Shown one piece after another: positions 23,104-51,400 of a DNA stretch of 64,000 nucleotides; position 1 is the first letter of the stretch, and each line of letters opens with the position of its first letter. The notes beneath the pieces were generated by a model, which did not search any database, was not told the DNA's origin, and worked only from the letters and a program-made list of their open reading frames with translations. Location: assembly GCA_943736015.1 (NCBI GenBank), contig OX031064.1, positions 40,289,361-40,353,360 on the forward strand, written 5' to 3'. The DNA comes from Tridacna crocea. Lineage: Eukaryota > Mollusca > Bivalvia > Cardiida > Cardiidae. Made by a program: the position numbers and the translations under genes.

Positions 23104-23185
23104 AGTGTCGTGTGTCTTGGTTATGTGTGTGGTTAATAATATACATGTACAGTTGTACACTATCTCATATTTTATGTTTGTACAG

Positions 23186-25171
23186 AGAATCAACTACAAT
23201 AAAATAATCATAATGGAGACAAATTGCTTACTCGAGCTACAGATGGAGGAGGGAGGTGAAATTTTGAGTGAGGGCAATCTAAAGTCTGATATCCGTGAAG
23301 GTGCTGCAGGCATTGTAAATGATGTGGACAGTCTGTTATTGGATACATCTGGAGAAAACACAGGGACTACAACTTACAGCACAACAGGAATCGACTTTGA
23401 ATTTGTCAACCCAGAATTAGGGTCAGGTCCAACTTACCCTCTGGATCACTCCTCTGTATTTGACATTTCTGAACCCGTAATTGAAGAAAAGTCTGAGTTA
23501 TTTCGTGATTCAGGTGTATTTGATGATTGCATTACAAAACAAAGTGAGTTGGAAAAGCAGCAGAATGCTAACTGTGATCTTCAGACTGGCAAAAAATTGA
23601 TAATGGATCTTGGGTTGAGACTGCAGATAATTCCACTAAATAACTTGAAGTTAGTTTCAACAATTCAAACCTCAGAAGGTGTGCATTTTGTTGCTTTGCC
23701 AGGCAATTCTAGCATTAGTCAAAACTCTGTGCCAGATCAACCAATGATACAAGATATTGTTCAGCATCTTAATTCTACGAATAGCGTTTCTGTGAATAAC
23801 GTGAGAGTTCATGAGTCGAGAGAAATAGGAAATGTGAAAAATGACTCGTCAAAGACAAAAGATGTTGCTAAATTTGTAGAATTAAAAAAATCTGATAGCA
23901 GATTATCCAGCATTCCCCAACAGAAGAGCTCAGGATTAAGAGATATCAAAAGATCTTTAGATACTATTGGTACTCTGATAGATCAACACAGTAAATCTGG
24001 AACACAAATAAAAAAGTATATACCAAATGAAACTTTAGGAAAGAAAGAGTCATTTTTACCACATTCAAAATTGATTAAACATACTTCTAAATCTACAGTT
24101 ATGTCAAATATCGGGAAGAAAGGACATTATTTTGAGGCAATACATGAAGTTGACCAGAAGTTGGCAAAATGTCAGGAGTCTTTTAGAGCATTTCCTAAAG
24201 AAAGCAAAATAATTATTGATTTAAGGAAACTGATGCCAAAGAAAAACCCAAGAAGAATGATATCGTTACTGAACAGTCCTAAAACATACAGATTGCGCAC
24301 AAACGGGGCAGTCAATATGAACCTGAAAAAATATTCAGATCCAGCCTCAAACATACCTTCATGTAAAATCACAAGCAATACAGCATTAACTTCTGCAAAC
24401 ATGCCCAAAATGTCATCAAAACCATATTTCAGTAAAAAGTGTACTGTTGTGTCAGCATCTAATAAAAACAAGATGATGCATGCTAGACAAAAAAAACGTA
24501 GAAAGTCCGGTAAGCCTGAGGACAACCAAGACATAGAATATGGAGATGCTGTGAGAGATATCAATGAACAAAAGAAAAATATGATGGGAAAAAACAGTAA
24601 ACACAACTGTAAAGTTTGTCAAGCAAAGTTCATTAGAACTGGAAATTACAGAAATCATCTCAACCTCCATAAAAGTTATATTCAACTATCAAAAGATAAA
24701 GTTCAAACAGCTGCAAAGACTATGGATGTATTGAATAGTGGCACAACAACTGATTTTGCTGTTGAAGATACTAGTAGAATCTCTAAATTTTCTATTGACA
24801 AAGAGATTATGCTCTCTACCAATGAGAAGAAAGCATTTACGAGTGTTGATCAATCTTCCTCAGATAATAGAAAAAGGTGTCAGAACTTACATGATGTTGC
24901 ATTTAATGCAGATAAACTTGATAAAGAATTTACCAGCGGCAACAGTCAAGAAAACCATCACGGTGTTGAGTCAACTGTAAACTATACATGTAATGAAATA
25001 GAGAAGTGTGATCTCATAGATCTCAACAAGTCTGAGAATGTATCTGATGATAAAAATCCTGACGAAGAGGAAAAAATCAATGATGTATCACAAAGTGACC
25101 TACGGTGTCATATTTGTCAACTCACACTATCAAGCGTAGGAAACTTGACCCGTCACAAACTGACTCACATG
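23186..25171 (+). CDS. Zinc-finger gene, exon with start codon
   Basis: The acceptor tttatgtttgtacag precedes 23186; 27 nt of leader lie before ATG 23213. The donor GTATGT begins at 25172. It codes residues 1-653, including the disordered N-terminal part and fingers 1 and 2. The open frame runs on to 25207 only by read-through into the intron. Confidence 0.88.
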
Positions 25172-28100
25172 GTATGTTTGTATGTTGTGAGTAGTCCAGA
25201 CAGATAGGGGTTAAAAACCTTGTTGTTTGGTTAACCCTTTACCAAAAAATCTCTGGTATTTACAACCCTGAGATAGAAGCCTTTTGAAAACATTGTGGGG
25301 AAAGGAGAAAATGCTGGTAACCAGCATTTTCTCCTTTTCCCACAATGTTTTCTACCCTGCTGGAAAAAATTACCAATTTTTGAGTTATTTTTCTTTTGTC
25401 GACTGCAAGTGCTTTCAGTTTGGACAAGTCTACAATTTTGTCATCTGGTAAAGAGTCAAGAAATAATTTTGTTTCCATTGTGGTTTATCTTTCAATAAAT
25501 CACAGTTGTGAGTTATGAGGCACAATATATAATCCATGAGTGTGATAGCCTGGTGGTTTATTCATTGTGCCTCATAACTCACAACATGGTTTATTGAACA
25601 ATCGAAAGAAGATTATTTTGATTCTAATATTCTTTATGAAAAGAAAACAAGTTCATCCTTAGAGTAAAACACAGATGAAGATTATGTTTCATAGAATAAT
25701 TTTTTTTTTTCTTTAAACAGAATGATGTCACTCTGGATGGAATGTTGCAAATTTGTCCACGCCTTCCTTGCACTGTGTTTATTATAAACTTTATAGAGCT
25801 GAATTAGTGTGTCATATAAGTATAAAGAATTATTTCTACCAAATGACAAAATTATAGCGCTGTCTAAACAGATGAATTGTTGTTCAAACCATGAAAGTTC
25901 TTTTTCAGAAAACAATTTGGTTGCAGTCATTTTCTCCTTTTCCCACAAATGTTTTTGATCCTTCTACCTAAAGAATTCACAAAAAGTCAGAATTTTGTGT
26001 TGGAGAGTTAACTCCAACCATGCAATTCCAACTTTTAACAACCCTGAGAGAGAAGCCTTCTTGAAACAGTGTGGGAGAAGGAGAAAATGCTCCTTTTCCC
26101 ACAATGTTTTGTGCCCTTCTCAAAAATAATTTCTCTTTTTTATTCACATTTATTTTGTTGTCTGCAAATGCGTTAGATTTGGTCTGGTCCAAAATTTTGT
26201 TGTTTGATAAAGAATTAAACAACAATGCTGACTGAAAGATTAAGTTTACATGCCTGAAGTTTTCCTTTTACAACACAAAATTTAGACTTGCCCATCATTG
26301 AAAGCATTTCACATGCCACAGTTGTGACTCAAGTGATGTAATTCGCCTTTAAAAGGGTTGAAAATCATATTGGAAGGGCAGAAAATGTTATTTACCAGTG
26401 TTTTCTCCATTTTCCAGGCTATCTGTTTGCTACAATGTATTTCTTTTAAGAGTGTTTTCTTCTGAAATTTTCTGTTGTCCACATTTTGTGAAAGTTTTTC
26501 CGAAAATCTGATCACCAGCATTGTCACATACAATTTTCTCTTAAAAGTTGTTTAAATGCAGAATTGTATAGGTATGTGGTATGGGATTAAGGTATCAAGG
26601 ATTAATATTAATATTTGTTACAGAACAAGACAGGAAGGTATGGATGCGCAGTTTGCAACAAAACCTTTCATCAGCAGTGTGACTTAAAGAGACATGAAAC
26701 CGTTCACTCCGGAAATTTCCCTTATGATTGCAAGGTTTGCTCTAAAGGTACTGTATAGTTGTGAAAATATGAACCCCTTTCCTGCTAAGTAACTAAAATG
26801 AAATTTTCGATTCCATAGTAAAAACTCAAATGTTGCTATTTCAAATTTATGTTTTAAGGAATTATATCTCACTATTGGACAGTGTAAATCCAAGATCAGA
26901 CTGCACATTCTGTGCAGTCTGATCTTGATCTACACTGTCCACAAAAGATATGTGAGTCACACTTAGCAGCCCAGGGATTAACTGTATAATCGAGTCTTAC
27001 CCTGTGAGAAACGGGATTGATGCATATACAATGTATACAAAAATGTACACTATCAACCCAGGTCAGCTTACATAGTCCAGGCAGGCTGACCTGGGTCAAA
27101 ACCTTTAGCTATTATTCAATTTTCTACATATCAGAGGACCAGTTTATTTCATGAATTGGTCAGTTATTAGACAAAATTTGCACTTATGGATACATGATTA
27201 TGTCATAACTTGCATGGTATCATGCCTCGGGGAAATGATTTAACTCGTTACCAAATGACAATAATTTAGACTGGTCAGAACTGAAAGCATTTGCAGATGA
27301 CAAAATAAAAGTGACTGAAAATTTGAAACTTGTTTTGTGAAGGGTAGAAAACATTGTGGGAAAAGGAGAAAATGCTGGTTACCAGCATTATCTCCTGTTC
27401 CCACAATGTTTTCTAAAGGCTTCTTTCTCAGGGTCGTCAAAAGAAGGGATTGTTTGGTAATGGGTTAAACTCCTTTTGCTAGAGCTTGACTTATATAATT
27501 ATGGTTGAATTTAAAACCCAATGTCATCTTTTGTTTTTCTCTCTTTTTTATCCCCCGCTGAAAGGCGGCGGGGGATATGGTAATAGTCTCCATACATCCT
27601 TTGGTCATTCTGTCATTCCGCTTTTTGTCTGGAGCATATCTCCAAAAGTATTTGAGATATCAACTTCAAACTTCACAAGTGGATAGATCTCATTAAGGAG
27701 GTGTGAAGTGTACAAGAACCATTACTCTATCTTCAGTATTTTTGGAGTTATTGCCCTTTGTACATTTTTTCTGGAATTTTTGTCCGGAGTATATCTCCAA
27801 AAGTATGACAGCTAGGAACTCGAAACTTCACACATATATAGAACTCATTGAGGAGGTGTGCAGTGCGAAAGATTCATTACTCTGTCTTCAGTATTTTTGG
27901 AGTTATTGCCCTTTGTACATTTTTACTTTGAATTCTTGTCCGGAGCATATCTCCAAAAGTATAAAAGCTAGGAACTTGAAACTTCTCACATATATAGAAC
28001 TCATTGAGGAGGCGTGCAGTGCAAAAGATCCATTACTCTGTCTTCAGTAATTTGGAGTTATTGCCCTTTGTAAATTTTAAATTTGGATTTTTGTTCGGAG

Positions 28101-31100
28101 CATATCTCCAAAAGTATTTTAGATATCAACTTCAAACTTCACAAGTGGATAGATCTCATTAAGGAGGCATGCAGTGTACAAGAACCATTACTCTATCTTC
28201 AGTATTTTTGGAGTTATTGCCCTTTGTACATTTTTTTTCTGGAATTTTTGTCTGGAGCATATCTCCAAAAGTATGAAAGCTAGGAACTTGAAACTTCACA
28301 CACATATAGAACTCATTGAGGAGGTGTGCAGTATGAAAGATCCATTACCCTGTCTTCAGTATTTTTGGAGTTATTGCCCTTTGCACATTTTTACTTTGAA
28401 TTTTTGTCCGGATTATATCTCCAAAAGTATAAAAGCTAGGAACTTGAAACTTCACACATATATAGAACTCATTGAGAAGAAGTGCAGTGCACAACAACCA
28501 TAACTCTGTCTTCAGTATTTTTGGAGTTATTGCCCTTTGTACATTTTTTTCTGGAATTTTTGTCCGGAGCATATCTCCAAAAGTATAAAAGCTAGGAACT
28601 TGAAACATCACACGCATATAGAATTAATTAAGGAGAAGTGCAGTGCTAAAGAACCATTACTTTATCTTACGTAATTGTTGAGTTATTGCTCTTTGTAAAT
28701 TTTCACTTTGGAATTTTGTCCGGAGCATATCTCCAAAAGTACACAGGCTAGAAACTTCAAACTGTATATACTTATAGAATTCATTAAGGAGAAGTGCACT
28801 TCACAAAAACCAAAACTCTGTCTTCTGTAATATTTGAGTTATTGCCCTTTGTTAATTTTTATTTTGGATTTCTGTCTGGCATATATCTCCAAAAGTATAA
28901 AAGCTAGGAACTTGAAACTTCACACACATATAGAACTAATTTAGGAGAAGTGCAGTGCACAAGAACCATAACCCTATCTTCAGTATTTTTGGAGTTATTG
29001 CCCTTTGTAAATTTTAACTTTGGATTTTTGTTCACACATTTTCATTTAGATTCACACGCTTTTTTGGACTGATTCCACTTTGATCAATTTTTCCTGTTCT
29101 GGGACAAGTGCTAGTTTTTTGCCCTTGTTTTTGTAATAAGGTGTCATGGAAAAGGGGGGTTTCATGTTATATTTCATTCCATTTCTTGTGAAGGCAGCTC
29201 CTTTTACATTTCTTGACGGAATTGAATAGAATTTTGACAGAATATTTCTTGTCATGTGACCTATTGCATATTGTCAACGATTTGTAGCTGCGTCATGAAA
29301 AAAGGGGGCTTCATGTTTTATTTCATTTTATTTCTTGTGAATGCAACTCATCCCATATTTCTTGACAGATTTGAATGGAATTTTCACATTATCATTTGAC
29401 CTAATACAACGACTCCCACATATCTTGGCAGATTTAGATGGAATTTTCACATGATCATGTGACCTACGGCATATTGTCAAGGTTTTGGGATTTGTAGCTG
29501 CATCATGGAATAATGGGGCTTCATGTTATAATTTCATTTTTCACCAGAATCTCTTCAATTACTGGACATATCTCAATAGATTTGGATGAGATTTTCACAC
29601 ATCATGAGACCTAGTACATGTTGTCAGGGTTTTGTGATTTATCACTGTATCATGGAAAAAGGGGACTTCATGTCAAATTTAATTTTTTATCAGTGTATCT
29701 CCAACTTTTGCACATATTTTCATAGAACTTCATATTTTGATTGCTTGATCAAAGCCAGTGACCAATGAGTCAATTGTGCATTCGTCTCTCCATGCATCAG
29801 TCTGTTCGTAAACCTTTTAGATCACAAGTAATACCATATATCCATTCAGCTACCCAGGCAGGTGCTACAAATTTCAATACTTTAGTCTCTAGCTACCTGC
29901 TTGAAATGGCAGCAGTGTGGCGGCTTATATTGTGAGAAGGATATCTTCTAAAGTCCTTGACAAAAATTGATGAAACTTCATGCAGGTTTTCCATTGGATA
30001 GTAGATACTTTTTTTTTTTTTCTCCCACATAATATATATGAAATCCTGAAATGGGTACTTAATATATAATCCTGTTATGGCACTCTTTTATATTTTTTTA
30101 TGTAATGAAATCCTGTGCCATGGAACAAGGGAGCTTAATGTATAATTTCATCATGGACCAGTAACAAAAAGGCCATATGTACATGCAAAACACAATACCT
30201 CTTATACATTTGTATCAAAAAAGGTCTTTTTCGGTGGGAGATATCATTTCAACGAAATTGCTTGTTTGTTTTGCTTCTTTCCCCACACAGTTTATTAACC
30301 CTTTACCAAACGACAATATTTTAGACTGGTCCAAATTGAAAGCATTTGCAGACGACAAAATAAAAGTGACTGAAAATTTGAAATTTGTTTTGTGAAGTGT
30401 AGAAAACATTGTTGGAAAAGGAGAAAATGCTGGTTACCAGCATTTTCTCCTTTTTCAACAATGTTTTCTAAAGGCTTCTTTTTTAGAGGTGTCAAAAGTA
30501 GAGATTGTGTGGAAATGGGTTAAATCATTTAAACTAGAGTTCAGGCTTTGCATAATTCCTTTACATAATAACTCTTAACCCTTTACCCCATAAGGCATTT
30601 CTATGGTATCTCTAATAGACCCTAAATAACAGCAAGGATGAAATTGTTTTTATGTGCGTATGACACCTTTTGATAGCATAGAAAACATTCTGGCAAAAGG
30701 TGAAATTGCTTGTCACGAACAATTTCACCTTTTGCCACGTTTTCCAAGTGCTCCTACAAGCAATGCATAGAAATGAGTATCTATGGAGTAAGAGGTTAAA
30801 GCACTGAGATAAAAACACTGGGCAATCCACTGAATCCAGAAATAATACCAGATTAAATACAATTCAAGGTTAAAAAAAATTCATGATAGTAATTCAGCAG
30901 AGAAGAGACTGTAGATTTCAAAGATCAGAATGTGCCCTTCATTCAGTCTGGTTTTGATTTTGATTTACACTGGCCACAAAAACAGCTATGATTGTAAAAA
31001 GCCATAAACAATTCATGTAAATGTTTTCTCCTGTTATTCGCTAAACTGCCCTAGATCTCAATCTCTCTCTTTGGCAGGTTTTCTTCGTAAGGACGACTTG

Positions 31101-34100
31101 TCCATTCATGAACATTTCCATACCAGAGAGAAGAAGCACAGTTGTGATAAATGCTCCAAGTCATATTTCCAGTCTGGTATGTTCTAAAAGACTTAACTCT
31201 TTACCACACAATTCTGACTTTAAATAACCATAATTAAAACAGTTTTGGTAAAAGGAGAAAATGCTGGTTACTAGCATTTTTTCCTTCTCCTGCAATAATT
31301 TATATACGCCCGTCGAAGACAGGACGTATTATGGGATCAACCACGGGTGGGTGGGCGTCCCGGCTGGCAGGCGGCGTCCAGTTCTATGTCCTGAGCATAT
31401 CTCCAAAACTATACTGGCTAGGGTTAGGAAATTTCATGGGTGGATTCATCTCATCGAGGGGGAGTGCAGTGCACAGGAATCATAACTCTTGCTTGCTTAT
31501 TTTTTGAGTTAGTGCCCTTTGTCGTTTTTCATACTTGAATTTTGTCCGGAGCATATCTCCAAAACTATACTAGCTAGGGTTAGGGAATTTCATGGGTGGA
31601 TAGATCTCATGGAGGGGAAGTGCAGTGCACAGGAATCATAACTCTTGCTTGCTTAATTTTTGAATTAGTGCCCTTTGTCGTTTTTCATATTTGAATTTTG
31701 TTCGGAGCATATCTCCAGATCTATACTAGCTAGGGTTATGAAATTTCATGGGTGGATAGATCTCATCAAGGCTGTGTGCAGTGCACAGGAACCATAACTC
31801 TTGCTTGCTTAATTTTTGAGTTAGTGCCCTTTGTTGTTTTTCATACTTGAATTTTGTCTGGAGCATATCTCCAGATCTATACTAGCTAGGGTTATGAAAT
31901 TTCATGGGTGGATAGATCTCATCAAGGGGGAGTGCAGTGCACAGGAGTCATAACTTTTGCTCGCTTAATTTTTGAGTTGGTGCCCTCTGTCGTTTTTCAT
32001 ACTTGAATTTTGTCTGGTGCATGCCCCAGCTTTACAACTTCGGGTAAGACGGGCGTATCTTGCGACAATTTGCCTCTCTTGTTTACCCTATCATAGACTT
32101 TAAACTACATTTTAGCATCATTATAAGCCTGCAAAACAAATATTTTGGGGGGGTATTCTGGAATCAGCCTGTCTGTGTGTCTGTCTGTCTGTGTACAAAA
32201 TACCATCAAAGCGCTGTTGGGTGTATAAAGTCACATTCAGTGACAGCACTAGTTTTACATGATATCCTCATCTACTTTCAATTTGGTCCAGACCAAAACT
32301 TTTATGTTTGTTAAAGAGTAAAACACTCGTTCTGGTCATAAATCCGACATCCTATGGCAGGTTTTCTTAGTAACATAGATATTTTCCATATCAAAATAGA
32401 GAATGATTGATTGATTAATATAACTGAATGGTTGTGTATGCCACTTGCAGCATTATTTTAGTACATCATGTGTGTCATGGGTTTTACCATTACTGAACTG
32501 GGGCTCTAAAGTATCTTGCCCAAGGAAACTCCCATAAAAGACATCATGCTTCCAGTGAAGCTTGAACCATGGATATTCAGGTCAGAATTCCCTCACTTTA
32601 CCTTCAAGCAATGTAGGGCCCTCTGATCTGGAGAAAGGTTCACCAGTGTGATCATTTTTATAGGTCATATTTACAGCCTGGTATGGTCAACTTGGCTTCA
32701 CAATTTCATGCAATTTGTTCATTATTTGATTGTCATAGGCAAGTTCATTTTAATAGACAAGACGCATTTGCTTGTCAATATCAGTGGGAAGAGACAAATC
32801 GTTTTACTTGTGGTCTAGTCCGGCATGGAAACGTTGAATATCATCCAAAGCATGCAATAGCGTCTATAGAAGATGTTTTTGCATTTTTTGAAAGAGGATA
32901 CATAGTACATTACAAAACCAAGTGATGCCAGTCTGGCATCCTTGGGCAACTTGCTAGAAACAAGATGGCGTCCAAAATGGCGGCTAAAATGATTTTTACA
33001 TAAAATGGACGCATATTACACTCATATCGTTTCTAAATTTCTCTCAGATGGTCTTGAAAATGTGAAATTAAAGTATATACATCCTTGAACATGATATTAC
33101 AACATCATCTATTTGATGTATCCCAAAGGGACATAATCATATTGAAAAAGAACACTTTTAGTACACCTTAAATTTCTCAACTGAACTTCTGCATCCAAAG
33201 AGCAAAATGTATCTTACAGTTGTTATGAATTGATTTTATCGCTTAGTCTGCTCATTACAACATATGATGTCCCCACGACATGCACAGAACACTGTACACG
33301 ACATTCCAGAACTCTTGCATCCGCAGCGCATGGATGAACATGGCGTCTGGCTTTCACACGAACATTTAATCATCTTAAGAATTTCTGGGGGTGCTATCTC
33401 AACACCAGCAGGCACCATAACAGGTATCAGCGTTTTTTCTTCTTCACATGCTCTCCAGCCGTGCTCAAGCGGATCTAGAGCTGGTGGATCTGGGTCAATG
33501 GCATGCTTCCACACACATGCTTGATAGTGTGCCCTCTTTGCATTTTCACAGAAAGATTCAGTCGTTGGGGGTAACGAGGGAAGCTTTGGTGCTGATGCAA
33601 GGGACTTTGCTGCTCTTTTTGCCCAAACCCTTATTCTAGCTTCTGACATATCTCTGACTGGGTCAATGTTGTAACACGATGCCACAAAACTGGTCGCTTC
33701 TCTTATAACATCCTCAAGGTCTGCATTTACATCACCAACCGAACTGACCGAATATTTCTGAGACTTCAGTACTTTTAATGCAGTTCCTTTGCCTACACCT
33801 TTACACATGGCAACAGTGTCACATCCAGATAGGGCATGAACCGCAGGGAGGTCTGGTATAATGTTTTTGTTTGCTTCTACTGTGGCATTTATATCAACAA
33901 TGGCTCTGTTTTGAAGTGCAGATTCCATTATTACTGGCACTTTCACTTGTTGATCATTGAAATGATACAGGGCCAGTACAAACACATCTGTATCATCAGA
34001 GATTATCGTTACACCATTTGAAGATTCCTTTAAAATATTGGCGGTTTGCTGGATTATAATATTGTCTGCTTCTTCATGACTTGTTCGTATGTCGTGTCGT

Positions 34101-37100
34101 AGTATATTAGCAGAGTCTCCTTCTGTTACTTCTATGGGTGAATCTTCCTCTCCAGTGATCACAAGTCTATGTCTACCACCTGTGGTTGTCTCTTGAAATG
34201 TAATGTTTGAGGATAGATCATCACAAATAATAGCTATTAGTTGCTTCTTATTATCTTGCATGTTTAGTATGTCCTCTTGATTCGGCAGTTTCATTGTATT
34301 CGACAGTTTATATACTTTTGCCTTTTTCATAGACCTTCCACGGTCAGCTCTTGTTGAACTCTTGATACTGAAGTCTCGGTATCTGTCGAAAACAAGATAC
34401 ACATCAAAATCTTTCAGTTTTCTTTCTACATACTTCCTGAACTTCTCTACAAAGTCTTTTACTAGTCCATTTTTTGGCCAGCTGATGGTGTAAAGTATTG
34501 CATAGCCGTCAATAACAACGCTTCCTGTTCGCCCAGATGACTGTCTGGCAGAGCATTCTTTTTTCAAACTTTGCTTCAACAGTGCTTTGTTGTTTGCAAT
34601 TCTGGGCTCCCCTGTTGCTTTAAACATGGATGTTGGCACTTGAGCTAATTCATAAGACAAAATATTGTCTAATACAATTTCTCTACCACTAGCTTGTATT
34701 CCTATCACTCTGCTGTATATTAACTCTGTATCAAATGATCTTTCTTCTCCTATGGTAACAGCTTTCTTGGACTCAGCTTGAGTTTTTACCAATCGCTTTA
34801 TTGTAGCACTGAATGAGCCAGGCCACCCTCTTTCGAATTCTTCCATCTGTTGTTTGCCTATTGATAAACTATCGTCAACGTTCACATTTAAGGGTGCCTT
34901 CTGGCCAGTCACAACATTTACAAGTTCTTTTGGATGTTCTTCTGGTTTGAAGGGGTGGATACATTCAGCTAACTTTTGCCGTAAAGATTCTCTGTCTTTC
35001 TTGTCGGCAGTAATTCTGCTCTTCATCTCTTCTTTATGTTTAGTGGTATCGTTTGGGGCTTCATCATTGATGAACTCTTCCAGGTCATTTTCCAGTTGAC
35101 TGCAGGTGTGTAAACTCAGAGCCCATACTTTCAGTGCTTCTGGCTTCAGTGTAATTCCTATGATGCCACGTTTGCCATGCCCAAAGCGCATAAATGTAGT
35201 CTCTATATACATGTCACTCCAAATTCCATTAAATACACCTGGGCAATGGCGCATGACATGTTCTCCTTTCATAAATTGTTCAAGCACTTCCAATGGAAGA
35301 CGTTCCATTTCTCTAAGATAGTACAGGGCATAGCGTGCATAATTCACATGTCCTGCTGCGAAGAAGTACGGTATCAATTCTTTGACAGCGTAAAGATGCA
35401 AACACCAATCACCTTCTCTCTCTGCTGGCACATACATCATCATAAGCATTACACCTTTCACAAGAATATCTGCCCATAATTTCGCTGTTCTGCTTTTGGA
35501 GGCGACACCACGAAGCATGTCTGTAATTGAAATCGTTCCATCCTTGTCTTCTTCAATGAGTGGACGAAGAACTTCTTCTGCCAGCATTCTCAAGGCTCGT
35601 ACATTTTGCGGGAACTTTTTCCCACTGAGCATTTTATTGACTCCGCCAAATGTTGACTCCAGGATTTCAGATAGTCCACTATTAGCCATTAGCGTTCCTA
35701 TAGAACCAACAAAACTCATAAGAGTGTGCATACCACCTAAGCGTAATATGACATTACCAAACTGCTCGGGATAGGCCCAGATAATGTTTACAGAAACTCT
35801 GTACAGCTGTAGATCACAAGTAAATACACAGTACCCTTGGCCACACTGTTGAGCTTGAATCTGCGACTGTCTCATAGCAGTCATCATAGTGTCAGGATCA
35901 GAGGGTGTCATGTCTATCAGTGGTAGGTAAACAGCTTTCACCTTAGGCTGCATAGCCTGACCTTGTCTCCTGCATTCTCTTGTATTATAGCCATTGTACT
36001 CGGGACAGTCCTCAACACTTACAACATCTCTAAGGAACAGAGCATCATTTGCTGCAGCACGCTTCTTTGAAATGGCTATTGTTGCTAACATTTTTAAAAA
36101 GAGTGGACATTTCTTGCATCTTTCTTCTGGCATTTCTGGCTGCTTAGGCCCATGGTAATTTGCCAATTCATTGCTATCTAGTCTTCTTATAACTAATGAC
36201 TCATTCGATGTAGTACTTGAATCTGCCTTTTCAGTCTGTGTTTGGAGGACAGCAAGGGAATGTGTAGAAAGTTTCCCATTTTGAGACGAAATGTCGGCAT
36301 CAAAGTTATCAGCAATTGTTTGCACTAATCCCTTTGAAGCATCAGAAATGCCTTGGAGTGTTGAGGATGAGGTAGCCTCAACTGCCGCTGATTTCTTAAA
36401 TCTTAAAAGTTCATTATAGTTACATGTCACCCCAAGTTTGTGCATTATTGTCAGAAGCTTCTTTGAATTGCGCATCAATACGCCCAGCGTTGTTTGCAGC
36501 ATCGTAGGATAGCTGGTTATAATGCTTGTAACGATCGACCCAATGAGATATGCATGTGGTGAATGATCAAGCTTTGGGGATAGCTTCGATAAGAAAGACA
36601 AAAGAGTCTCACTCACCGATTCTTGAATTATACTTTCCGTCAATCTAGATTTGTACTCTTTCTTACATATGTTAATCAACTGAACTTCATCAAGAACTCT
36701 TTTTGCCAATTTCTCAATTGCAAAATCAATCGCACCATCCTCCTTATCAGGCACCAGCTTAAGCAGATCTGGGGCATCACTTCTGAACACAACAATGCTG
36801 GCTACTCCATTCGCAGACAAAATCAGTAGATCATCACCAAAATATTCTCTTAGTGCTTGCATTAGGGATCTACGTGAAAGTTTCCCATTAGCGTCTTTGG
36901 AATATATGTCATGCAGTTCTACTGAATTCCATATCTTAGATTTATCTTCTCTCATAACATTCACTAGATATTGAAAGTCTAGATCAACAGGATCATTGTC
37001 AGGTGATGTTTTTGTAGTGGTTCTTGCAGCTGCACCTACACTGCGAGGGCTCATGAAGTCTGACTTACAATCTACATGGTACCTTGCATCTGCAGCATGA

Positions 37101-40100
37101 AGATCACTCAAAGCTCCTTGTACACGAATACGTACTTTTTCTGCTTTTGCGTCACCCCGTTCCTGGCATTTTCCCAGTATGGCCTTTTTAAAATCATCTG
37201 TTTCACCAAGTGTCCGACACTGGTATGCTGGCCTCCATCTATTGGGGTGTTTAGGATCTTTTTCACACTCACATGTTTCACCACAAAACATGCAATGAAC
37301 CCGAAAATCAAATGATGGTGTGCTTGATCTTTGTTTTCGTTTAGATGGAGATGGGATTTCAGCAGTATCAGACTGCTTTCTTCTGTTTACACATCTTTTG
37401 AGATGCTGTTTTGAACAATATGTTGATACACAGTTTCTGTGTACAGAAATCTTTGGATTGTCACTCGTCTTCAATATTTCTTCTAGTGTTATATGGAGTT
37501 CATCATTATAAAGTTTGCTGTATTCAATAATAGTTTGAATACGTGATGCACCAGATTCTGATAGTTTGTCAGTAGGATGGCATCTACATGCATCAACGCT
37601 CTGTAAAATACACCCTTCTATTTTGTCAAAGTCTACTCGTATGAACATTCAGGAAAACAATGATTTGGATTTGTAGCGTTGTGTTTATTTGTCGCGCTTA
37701 CACAGTGAAATTGGAAGTTGATAACAGATGTAAAATCTTTTAATTTCTTACATGTTCATTCCAGAAATTCAACGTAAATTCTCTTTAATACCACACAATC
37801 CCTACTTTTGACGCCCCTGAGAAAGAAGCCTTTAGAAAACATTGGGGGAAAAGGAGAAAATGCTGGTAACCAGCATTTTCTCCTTTTACCGCAATGTTTT
37901 CTACCCTTCACAAAACAAATTTTAAATTTTCAGTCACTTTCATTTTGTCGCCTGCAAATGCTTTCAATTTGGACCAGGTTAAAATTTTGTCATTTGGTAA
38001 TGGGTTAAATCCAAATTTTTGTTAGCCATTTTGGGTTTAGTTAGCTATTTTGTTTCTTTTTTTTTTTGTTGAGTTTCAGTTCATTTGTTGAGGCATATAG
38101 TTTTCTACTGTAGCAATGGATCTACTGAAATCAATGGTATAGTTAACTGCAATTTTCATTTCATTTTTGCTTTTACTCCAAGACATTTTACCCGCTTTTA
38201 GCTGCTATCTTGGATTTTGGCGGCCATTTTTATTTTTTTTAAATTTGCTTTTATTGTATATTGATGAAAAATCTTAGCTAAGCTTTTTCTCAAGTTTAAA
38301 TGCCATCTTTTAAACATTTTATAAATATATATAAGAAGATCTATGACAAAAACCCTTATTTTGTCGGCCATCTTGGATTTTGGCGGCCATCTTGAATTGC
38401 CCAATGATGCCAATCTGGCATCATCCAGATTTCAAATCAGGATACCAATACCTACTTATTTCAGCAAAAATATTTTCTATAGACGCTATTGCACGGTCAT
38501 CTTGGATTCATGCCGGACTATTCCTAGTCATGTATTATATATTATATAAGAATTAATTTATCATAAGTCCTCTCACTAATTCAATTTATGCCATTATGCC
38601 ATGAGGCTGCATTGCCTTGCTTTCCTGATTTTGTTAGTTTGTCATTCTCTGATTTTTATCTGGATCCGTATTCACTAATCATTTTACAACAGTCTTTGTC
38701 TTATTGTTAGCTCCACTGGCCGAAGGCCAGCGAGCTATTGTCATGGCGTTGTGTCCGTCGTCCGTCCGTCCGTCTGTTCGTCCGTGCGTGCGTCCGTAAA
38801 CTTTTTCTTTAAAAAACTTCTCCTCAGAAACTATTGACTGGATTTTTACCAAATTTCACAGGAATGTTCCTTAGGTGGTCTTCTTTCAAATTCCTTCAAA
38901 TAATTCTGTTCCATGAATAATTCTGGTTGCCATGGCAACCAAAGTAAAAAATCTTCTCCTGCCAAACCTCTAATTGGATATCAATATTATTTTGCAGGAA
39001 TGTTCCTTAGGTAGAGGTCTACAGAATTCCTTTAAAAAAAAAGGATCCGTAAAAAAGCATGGCTTTTATGGGAGACTCATTTTCCTTGTATGGTATAAAG
39101 TACAATCTTTAAAAAATTTCTTCTCTCAAACTATTTGTTGATTTCATTGTTGTATTGCAGGTTAGTTTCTATGGTGGTAAGTCTTTACCATACAATCCTG
39201 ACTTTTAACGTCCCTAAAGAAGAAGGCTTTGGAAAACACTCTTGGAAAAGGAGAAAATGCTGTAATCAGCATTTTCTCCTTTTCTCTCAGTGTTTTCATC
39301 AAAGAGAGAAATCATCATTTTATCAATGTTTAATTTGATTTCTGCAAATGCTTTCGGTTTGGTCACATCCCAAATTATGTCGTTTGGTAGAGTTAAAAAT
39401 GGTTGCTTTACATAATCTGTAATCCTTTTCATATAAAACAAGAGAAGCTCTGCACTGTTATTAGTTCTGGTAAAGGTTTATTGACCTACTGGTGACCTAG
39501 TACAAAGAGGGACAGGGCTTTACTCTTGTGATAAGGCATTTTGTTATCCAATCAAACTGATCCTGCAACTTCAATAAAACAATTGCCACAATGCATATTT
39601 TTTTCTATATTTTGATGTTACCCGAGCCAAAATGGTTTGTAACAAGACCCTCTTTAACTATAACCAGATGACAAAATTTTTATAACTGGTCATAATTGAA
39701 AGATGTTGCAGACAACATAATAAATCTTCAAATTGGTAAAACTTTTATCAAAAAGATGTTGCAGACAACATAATAAATCTTCAGATTAGTAAAACTTTTA
39801 TCAAAAAGGGTAGATATTATTGTGTAAAACTAAGAAAATGTAGGTTACTATTATTTTCTTCTTTTCTCACAATGTTTTTCATAACTTTTTAGCTCACCTT
39901 AGCACAAAGTGCTAAAGGTGAGCTATTGCGATCGCCCAATGTCCGGCATCCGTCAACAATTTCTTTAAATATCTTCTCCTCCTAAACCACTGGGCCAATC
40001 TTTCATGAAACTTGGCAGGAATGTTCTTTGGGTGAAGCTCTACCAAACTTGTTCAAAGAATTTAATTCCACCCATAACTCTGGTTGCCATGGCAACAAAA

Positions 40101-48452: not shown

Positions 48453-51400
48453 CTGGTATGTTATTGAAACAAGAGAAAAATGATTTACAACTAACATTTA
48501 ACCACATAACAAAATATTGGTCTAGTACAAATTGAAAGCATTTAAAGCTATTTTTTCCCTTTTTCTGCATTGTTTCTACAAGCCCCTTTCACCAGATTCA
48601 ATAAGAAAAAGAATTATTGGCTCACCTGTACATGAAGTGCTCATGGTGAGCTATTGTGATCGTGCTGTGTCCGTCGTCAACTTTTTACCATGTGTACGCT
48701 CTAGAGGCCACAATTTCGGTCCGATACTCATGAAAGTTGGTCAGGATGTTTGCCTCGATGAAATCTCAGAAGAGTTTGAAAATGGGTATTGTGGGGTCAA
48801 AAACTATGTCAGTAGGTCAAATCTTAGAAAAACCTTGTGTACGCTCTAGAGGCCACATTTTCAGTCAGATACTCGTGAAAGTTGGTCAGGATGTTTGTCT
48901 TATTAATATCTTGGACAGGTTCGAAAATGAGTCATGTGGAGTCAAAAACTAGGTCACTAGGTCAAATTTTAGAAAAACCTTGTGCCCGCTCGAGAGGCCA
49001 CATTTTCAGTCGGATACTCATGAAAGTTGGTCAGGATGTTTGCCTGGATGATATCTCGGACGAGTTTGAAATGGGTCATGTGGGGTCAAAAACTACGTCA
49101 CTAGGTCAAATCTTAGAAAAACCTTGTGTACGCTCTAGAGGCCACATTTTCAGTCCAAAACTCTTGAAAGTTGGTCAGAATGTTTGTCTTGATGATATCT
49201 CGGACAATTATGAAAATGGGTCATGTTGGGTCAAAAACTAGGTCACTAGGTCTAATTTTAGAAAAACCTTGTGTACACTCTACAGGCCACATTTTCAGTC
49301 CGATACTCATGAAAGTTGGTCAGGATGTTTGCCTGGATGATATTTTGGACGAGTGTGAAAAAAGGTCATGTGGGGTCAAAAACTAGGTCACTTGGTCAAA
49401 TCTTTGAAAAACCTTGTGTACGCTCTAGAGGCCACATTGTCAGTCCAAAAGTCTTGAAAGTTGGTCAGAATGTTTGTTTTGGTGATATCTCTGACAAGTC
49501 CGAAAATGGCTCATGTCGGGTCAAAAACTAGGTCACTAGGTCAAATTTTAGAAAAACCTTGTGTACGCTCTATAGGTCACATTTTCAGTCCGATACTCAT
49601 AAAAGTTGGTCAGGATGTTTGCCTCGATGAAATCTAGGAAGAGTTTGAAAATGGGTCATGTGGGATCAGAAACTAGGTCACTTGATCAAAATTTTAGAAA
49701 ACCTTGTGTAAGCTCTAAAGGCCACATTTTCAGTCAGATACTCATGAAAATTGGTCAGGAAATTTTCCTGGATGATATCTCGGACAAGATCGAAAATCGG
49801 TCATGTGGGGTCTAAAACTAGGTCACTAGGTCAAATTTTAGAAAAATCTTGTGTATGCTCTAGAGGCCACATTTTCAGTCCAAAACTCTTGAAAGTTGGT
49901 CAAAATGTTTGTCTTGATGATATCTCGGACACGTTCGAAAATGGGTCATGTTGGGTCAAAAACTAGGTCACTATGTCAAATCTTAGAAAAACCTTATGTA
50001 CGCTCTAGAGGTCACATTTTCAGTCCAAAACTCATAAAAGTTGGTCAGAATATTTGCCTTTATGATATTGGGTCATGTGGAGTCAAAAACTAGGTCACCA
50101 GGTCAAATGTTAGAAAAAACTTTTGTAGGCTGTAGAGACGACATTTTCAGTCCAAAACTCTTGTAAATTGATCAGAATGTTTCCCTTGATGATATATTAG
50201 ACGAATTTGAAAATGGGTCATTGGGGGTAAAAAACTAGGTCACCAGGTCAAAGCTTTGAAAAACGTTGTATATGCTATGGATGCCACATTTTCAGTCCAA
50301 CATTCTTGAAAATTAGTCAGAATGTTTGCATTTATAATATCTTGGATGAGTTAGAAAATAGGTCATGTTGGGTCAACAACTGGGTCAATAGGTCAAATGT
50401 TATAAACACCTTTTGTATGCTCTGGAGGACACATTTTCAGTCTGATACTCCTAAAACTTGTTCATAATATTTGTCCTGGTGATACCTTGGATGAGTTTGA
50501 AAATGGGTCATGTGGAGTCAAAAACTAGGTCAATGGGTCAAATATTAGAAAAACCTTGTGTACACTGTAGAGGCTACATTTTCTGCCTGATACTCTTCTG
50601 ACTTGGTCAGAATGTTTGTTTTGGTGATGTCTCAAAAGAGTTTGATAATGGGTAAGTGTCGGGTCCAAAACTAGGTCACTTGTGAAATCTTAGAAAAACC
50701 TTTTGTACGCTGTAGAGGCCACATTTTCAGTCCAATACTCATGAAACTTGGTCAGAATGTTTGTCTTATTGATATCTCAAAAGTTTTTGATGATGGGTAA
50801 TGTCTGATAAAAAACTTGGTCACTGGGAAACTAGATGGTTCATGTTTGGTCAATAGACTCAGGTGAGCGATTTCAGGGCCATCATGGCCCTCTTGTTTTT
50901 ATAGGTCCCTTTCACCAGGTTCATTAAGACCAAGGATTGTTTGATTGAAAAGTAAATTCTGTGTGCTGGATATTTATTTTGTATTATTATTTTTTTCAAC
51001 TCTGTTTCAGTTAAATTGCTGTAGCTATTCATGCTTTCCTGGAGTTTCTTATAACAATACTTTGCTACAGGTTGTTCTCAAGCAACTCCCTGCTTTTCAG
51101 TATAAAGATGTAACCTTTGTAGAACAGTGATCAGCAATGAAAGAAAAATGAATTCTGTTGCAATGACTATCATTAGTCCTCAGAAAGAAATTGTTAAAGC
51201 TGAGGGATTACTCCTATGATTCTGTGGTTTCAAGCCCTGTATGCTACTGATGATCTACCAACGAGTTACTGGGCTGTGTGTTACATGACGTGATGAAATC
51301 AAAGCATTCAAAATGCTGGAGTGGTATTTGTCACAGAAGCCATTGTGTGGAATAAATAATTTGAAAGGAAAAGGAAATATTCAAATATTTGCTCAATAAT

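Follow-up and report, generated by a model that had tools for sequence, protein, structure and literature searches.

The 64,000-nucleotide stretch of the Tridacna crocea genome analysed here (hereafter the window; contig OX031064.1) contains a 5705-bp transposon with imperfect inverted ends and a single intact gene. The gene encodes a 1470-amino-acid protein in which a candidate DDE transposase core is followed by an XPG/FEN-like nuclease region and a Cys-rich tail. We analysed the ends of the element, its copies in the host genome and the encoded protein. Our results indicate that this is very probably an autonomous DNA transposon of the cut-and-paste type, with features that match the AcademX lineage in the Academ superfamily.

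Ends, copies and insertion sites

The element starts with TAGTCCGGCATG and ends with CATGCCGGACTA; in an alignment, TAGTCCGGCATG is found at the left end and, inverted, at the right end. Further inwards lie three pairs of inverted arms of 30, 27 and 18 nucleotides, which are 93%, 89% and 89% complementary, respectively. All inverted blocks named in a first-pass annotation, which had proposed a transposon at this locus from the letters of the window, were located at both ends (Table 1). Local alignment of the inverted ends scores 63, whereas 500 random placements in the window average 19. Two of these placements score higher (64 and 81), the window being rich in repeats, so the inverted repeat by itself would not prove an element. 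The inverted ends are nevertheless beyond chance, because they recur genome-wide and are accompanied by 3-bp duplications in 17 of 21 copies.

Genome searches with the termini reveal many other copies of the element. The left end (385 bp) has at least 40 matches in the 1.05-Gb host genome and the right end (324 bp) at least 41, both counts being lower bounds with only the best candidates scored. When left and right ends were paired by contig, strand and distance (<11 kb), at least 35 correctly oriented pairs were obtained, window included, with a median span of 3480 bp. We retrieved 20 of the 34 other paired copies and examined 21 together with the window element. With the element defined as TAGTCC...GGACTA, a first count gave identical flanking triplets in 16 of 20 copies and a 4-bp match in none; L062, which has a variant right end, was left out of this count and included in the recount at exact ends that gave 17 of 21. 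Re-pairing of the flanks (10,000 times) yielded 1.7 identical triplets on average and never more than eight, versus the 16 of 20 observed.

We also searched the DNA already retrieved for empty sites, with queries in which the two flanks of each of the 21 elements (window element included) were joined and one triplet was kept. Matches across the joint were found for six of the 21 copies. For L052, L053, L056 and L068, the best match crosses the joint ungapped with a single triplet position; for L060, which lies within a hairpin repeat, it is gapped near the joint, and for L049 it is good on the left side only. In these cases the element has inserted into another repeat, of which uninterrupted relatives preserve the site as it was before insertion; the related empty sites confirm the boundaries of the four copies with ungapped matches. 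The proposal of a transposon with these boundaries is thus borne out by recurring ends, target duplications and related empty sites.

L060 (G000:C10:42941491-42948771) has two left ends, separated by ~3.7 kb, and a single right end, an arrangement resembling a partial tandem duplication.

All 20 retrieved copies are gene-less and carry an unrelated repeat of ~2.4 kb in place of the gene. Their longest stop-to-stop frame has 156 codons, and a tblastn search with the 1470-amino-acid protein gave only five chance-level matches in them (E ≥ 2). In the other 14 paired copies, absence of the gene is taken only from the genome protein search for relatives, in which 32 of 155 candidates were scored. 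The gene-less copies share the left 411–414 bp, which stop ~8 nucleotides past the stop codon of the gene; the longest right block (in L049, L051, L054 and L068) starts ~8 nucleotides inside the start of the gene, and it is shorter in other copies. Over the left 412 bp, the window element differs from the 20 copies by 1.9–4.4% and the copies differ among themselves by 3.9% on average (190 pairs).

The inner repeat has inverted ends of its own in three of the four copies tested (L049, L054 and L068, but not L058). As a genome query, 1341 bp of it gave 55 matches, the best 40 of which reached 31 of the 35 paired copies; eight lay outside all pairs. L056 is negative in that count, yet the repeat was found in it on separate examination. 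We rejected the possibility that the 3.3-kb copies arose from the window element simply by internal deletion, because an unrelated repeat lies inside them (31 of 35 pairs and L056). The C15 copy differs in that it keeps codons 1 to ~430 and has an internal deletion. As a side observation, the inverted ends of the inner repeat (in the same three of four copies) are close to ATGTAGCCGGGTACAGGTATTTAGTGATATATC.

Table 1. Positions of the transposon, its gene and their parts in the window.
Feature	Position	Strand	Remarks
Complete transposon	32816..38520	.	5705 bp; recurring ends; boundaries taken from other copies (3-bp duplications, related empty sites)
Left terminal and subterminal inverted repeat blocks	32816..32978	+	TAGTCCGGCATG 32816-32827; 32853-32882; 32923-32949; 32961-32978
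Right terminal and subterminal inverted repeat blocks	38377..38520	-	38377-38394; 38397-38423; 38464-38493; CATGCCGGACTA 38509-38520
Left flanking triplet GTC	32813..32815	+	expected target duplication; one base off the right triplet
Right flanking triplet TTC	38521..38523	+	
Single intact gene, 1470-amino-acid transposase-nuclease	33236..37648	-	no other intact copy of its own family in the 32 candidates scored out of 155
N-terminal Cys/His-rich part (VHRNC from residue 69, HCMFC from 118, YHVDC)	37049..37444	-	probably zinc-binding
Candidate DDE transposase core, residues 430-860	35069..36361	-	D447/D450, D612 and E816 conserved; weak DUF6589 match
XPG/FEN-like nuclease, residues 1030-1345	33614..34561	-	D1047, D1088, E1192-D1195, D1219/D1221, D1277
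C-terminal Cys-rich CXC tail, residues 1429-1463	33260..33364	-	from alignment
Hairpin repeat, later insertion within the element, upstream of the gene	37789..38004	.	not in the C15 copy; similar repeats elsewhere in the window

The encoded protein and its relatives

The gene is intact over its 1470 codons, with an ATG start and no internal stop, as described in the first-pass annotation. Used as a genome query, the window protein has 45 matching stretches, among which the window is the only intact close one; a distant relative used as a second query has 51. L071 is 56% identical to the window protein over part of its length and is broken; it has subterminal blocks in common with the window element at one end, and its other end was not found. 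Relatives with TAGTCC ends are only ~25–28% identical to the window protein. One of them, L069, has an intact frame of 1461 codons; L070, in which the frame is broken, is 98.6% identical to L069 over 6857 bp. Each begins with TAGTCCAGTCAATCTA and has its complement at the other end; from end to end, L069 and L070 measure 6831 and 6809 bp, and their flanking triplets are TTA/TTA and ATA/ATA, respectively. This shows that termini and duplication length are shared with distant relatives. No relatives of the protein were found in viral contigs and phage records.

L069 (G000:C9:55174300-55181900) and L070 (G000:C4:26450000-26457600), at different sites, make up a second family that looks younger than that of the window.

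Codon positions differ in their rates of change between lineages. Between the window gene and L071 (278–279 codons aligned as DNA), the proportion of differences is 0.545 at third positions, 0.259 at first and 0.179 at second positions; between L073 and L072, it is 0.518, 0.194 and 0.123 in the same order. Such a third-position excess is typical of purifying selection between lineages. The decayed C15 copy has no comparable bias relative to the window gene, with 19 differences at first, 29 at second and 28 at third positions (of 440). The first-pass annotation had also read the intact frame as a possible sign of recent activity. Left ends only ~4% apart are in favour of this, whereas the window holding the only intact copy of the family found and the hairpin repeat inserted upstream of the gene speak against it.

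We then focused on the domains of the protein by aligning six sequences, not all of them full-length. In the core region, D447, D450 and D612 are conserved in all five sequences that cover them and E816 in all six; E661 and D812 are further invariant acids. On this conservation, a DDE triad would most plausibly be formed by D447/D450, D612 and E816. In the XPG region, a profile built from five sequences finds EXO1 chains as the top five of 11 matches among solved structures (best E = 0.0016), through two collinear segments with FD..K..rR and GCD motifs; the remaining conserved acids of this region presumably correspond to FEN-family catalytic residues. The CXC tail is missing from the relatives L072 and L073, and the Tesmin/TSO1 CXC model matches only the homologue L046 (E = 0.0029, below cut-off). 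CXC- and PIN/FEN-like parts, which the first-pass annotation had recognized in the frame, are thus present according to the alignment and profile matches. Scans of the whole proteins against Pfam and NCBIfam gave no match at curated cut-off.

Classification and mechanism

The Academ superfamily and the AcademX lineage are credited to Kapitonov and Jurka (2010) and Kojima (2020). Academ elements have an XPG-type nuclease and a Cys8 zinc finger. Passages of PMC10045372 give target duplications of 3 or 4 bp for AcademX and of 9 or 10 bp for AcademH of the same superfamily, tie this difference to the nuclease or helicase carried, and leave the type of the AcademX "nuclease" unstated. Academ is named in a passage of PMC9587614 among 20 Repbase superfamilies with a DDD/E transposase, and excerpts of PMC10294476 report an Academ expansion in bivalves and a mean length of 5565 bp for 100 curated bivalve Academ elements.

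The window element was compared with these features. Terminal inverted repeats are present, and the duplications of 3 bp, which recur in L069 and L070, are those of AcademX and not those of AcademH; a Pfam scan of the window protein up to E = 10 shows no helicase. A nuclease accompanying the transposase is indicated by the moderate EXO1 profile match and the conserved acids, and the place of the DDD/E core would be taken by the conserved D447/D450-D612-E816, without a fold or named-family match. The lengths (5705 bp here, and those of L069 and L070) are supporting, not defining. Our assignment to AcademX is made because inverted ends, 3-bp duplications, a DDE-like core and an XPG-like nuclease occur combined. 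By its features, the element is therefore a new member of a named superfamily, not a new superfamily; the earlier statement that no named superfamily is known with this combination is not supported, since passages on Academ and AcademX fit it (PMC10045372, PMC10294476).

Several observations weigh against this assignment. Academ membership is set by features. Four of the 21 copies lack an exact triplet, namely the window element (GTC/TTC), L055, L061 and L067. The profile of the core region (A3) has no match among solved structures, and DUF6589 (Pfam PF20231), the sole Pfam match in more than one of its members, is a weak, sub-cut-off match to a family of unknown function in two of five members (profile positions ~268–361); no paper with this name was found in the literature searched. 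The EXO1 match is moderate, with neither segment significant alone (i-Evalues 24 and 1.1), and the whole-protein profile reaches EXO1 only at E = 0.3. The best Pfam match of the window XPG region is pyruvate kinase (E = 0.0031, surely chance), followed by Pox_G5 (0.0066), and the PIN-like NYN family matches L069 only (E = 0.00021, below cut-off).

Another named superfamily with Cys-rich parts or an accessory nuclease, e.g. Zisupton/KDZ or Kolobok, could be considered given the CXC tail; however, Kolobok duplicates TTAA and Zisupton 8 bp, unlike the sequence-variable 3-bp duplications found here. Accessory nucleases do occur in Kolobok lineages, but those described in passages of PMC9587614 are DEDDh, lambda-exonuclease-like and His-Me finger nucleases, not XPG. 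We regard such a placement as improbable. That the gene is a host gene flanked by chance repeats is even harder to maintain. In its favour, no other intact gene of the family was found, and the triplets flanking the window copy are not identical; against this stand the same ends in at least 35 pairs, the 3-bp duplications and the empty sites. Likewise, homologues are not confined to host loci devoid of inverted repeats, as the intact L069 is enclosed by TAGTCC inverted repeats of its own and has a near-identical copy at another site. Taken together, we give the host-gene explanation practically no weight.

The question of which domain is the catalyst bears on the view in the first-pass annotation that the element's own gene is its transposase or nuclease. 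That the gene belongs to the element stands. If the PIN/FEN nuclease were itself the transposase, in a new superfamily, this would agree with the conservation of most XPG acids among members and with the lack of any detected known DDE family or fold. However, a staggered 3-bp target duplication is compatible with DDE integration, and the upstream acids, conserved in every covering sequence, could form a DDE triad. Some XPG acids are replaced in individual members: E1192 and E1193 by G and D in L069, and D1221 by V in L046. Moreover, a published lineage already combines a nuclease with 3–4 bp duplications, according to passages of PMC10045372. We consider a PIN/FEN transposase very improbable, and the DDE core appears the likelier catalyst, with the XPG domain as an auxiliary.

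For an AcademX-like element, we propose that (i) the zinc-binding and CXC parts of the protein may bind the TAGTCC termini and the subterminal blocks; (ii) the DDE core (D447 or D450, D612 and E816) would cleave the ends and join them to the target with a 3-bp stagger; and (iii) the fused XPG/FEN nuclease might trim flaps or cut the second strand, at excision or integration. EXO1, to which this nuclease shows a collinear profile match, is a FEN/XPG nuclease; here, the nuclease is fused to a transposase-like protein, with low, moderately significant similarity. We infer that this gene, or lost kin of it, moved the gene-less copies in trans. A further reading, which seems rather doubtful, is that the one surviving full-length copy supplies the enzyme to a family of ends-only copies, at least 20 and probably more than 30 in number, in which another mobile repeat occupies almost exactly the place of the gene; the shared non-coding ends would then comprise every sequence required to move, and the 3-bp stagger would depend on the fused XPG nuclease. 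With its intact gene, exact ends, duplications and related empty sites, this well-defined AcademX-like element lends itself to testing what the fused XPG nuclease does during Academ transposition.

Other features of the window

Hairpin repeats like that inserted upstream of the gene occur many times in the window, and the gene-less copies L052 and L060 lie in or beside one. In a 700-codon frame at 23105-25207, C2H2 zinc fingers are matched weakly and below cut-off. Long tandem arrays occupy 27622-29031, 31387-32022, 48687-50824 and several stretches between 51625 and 59734; their repeat units measure about 156, 145 and 166 bp.

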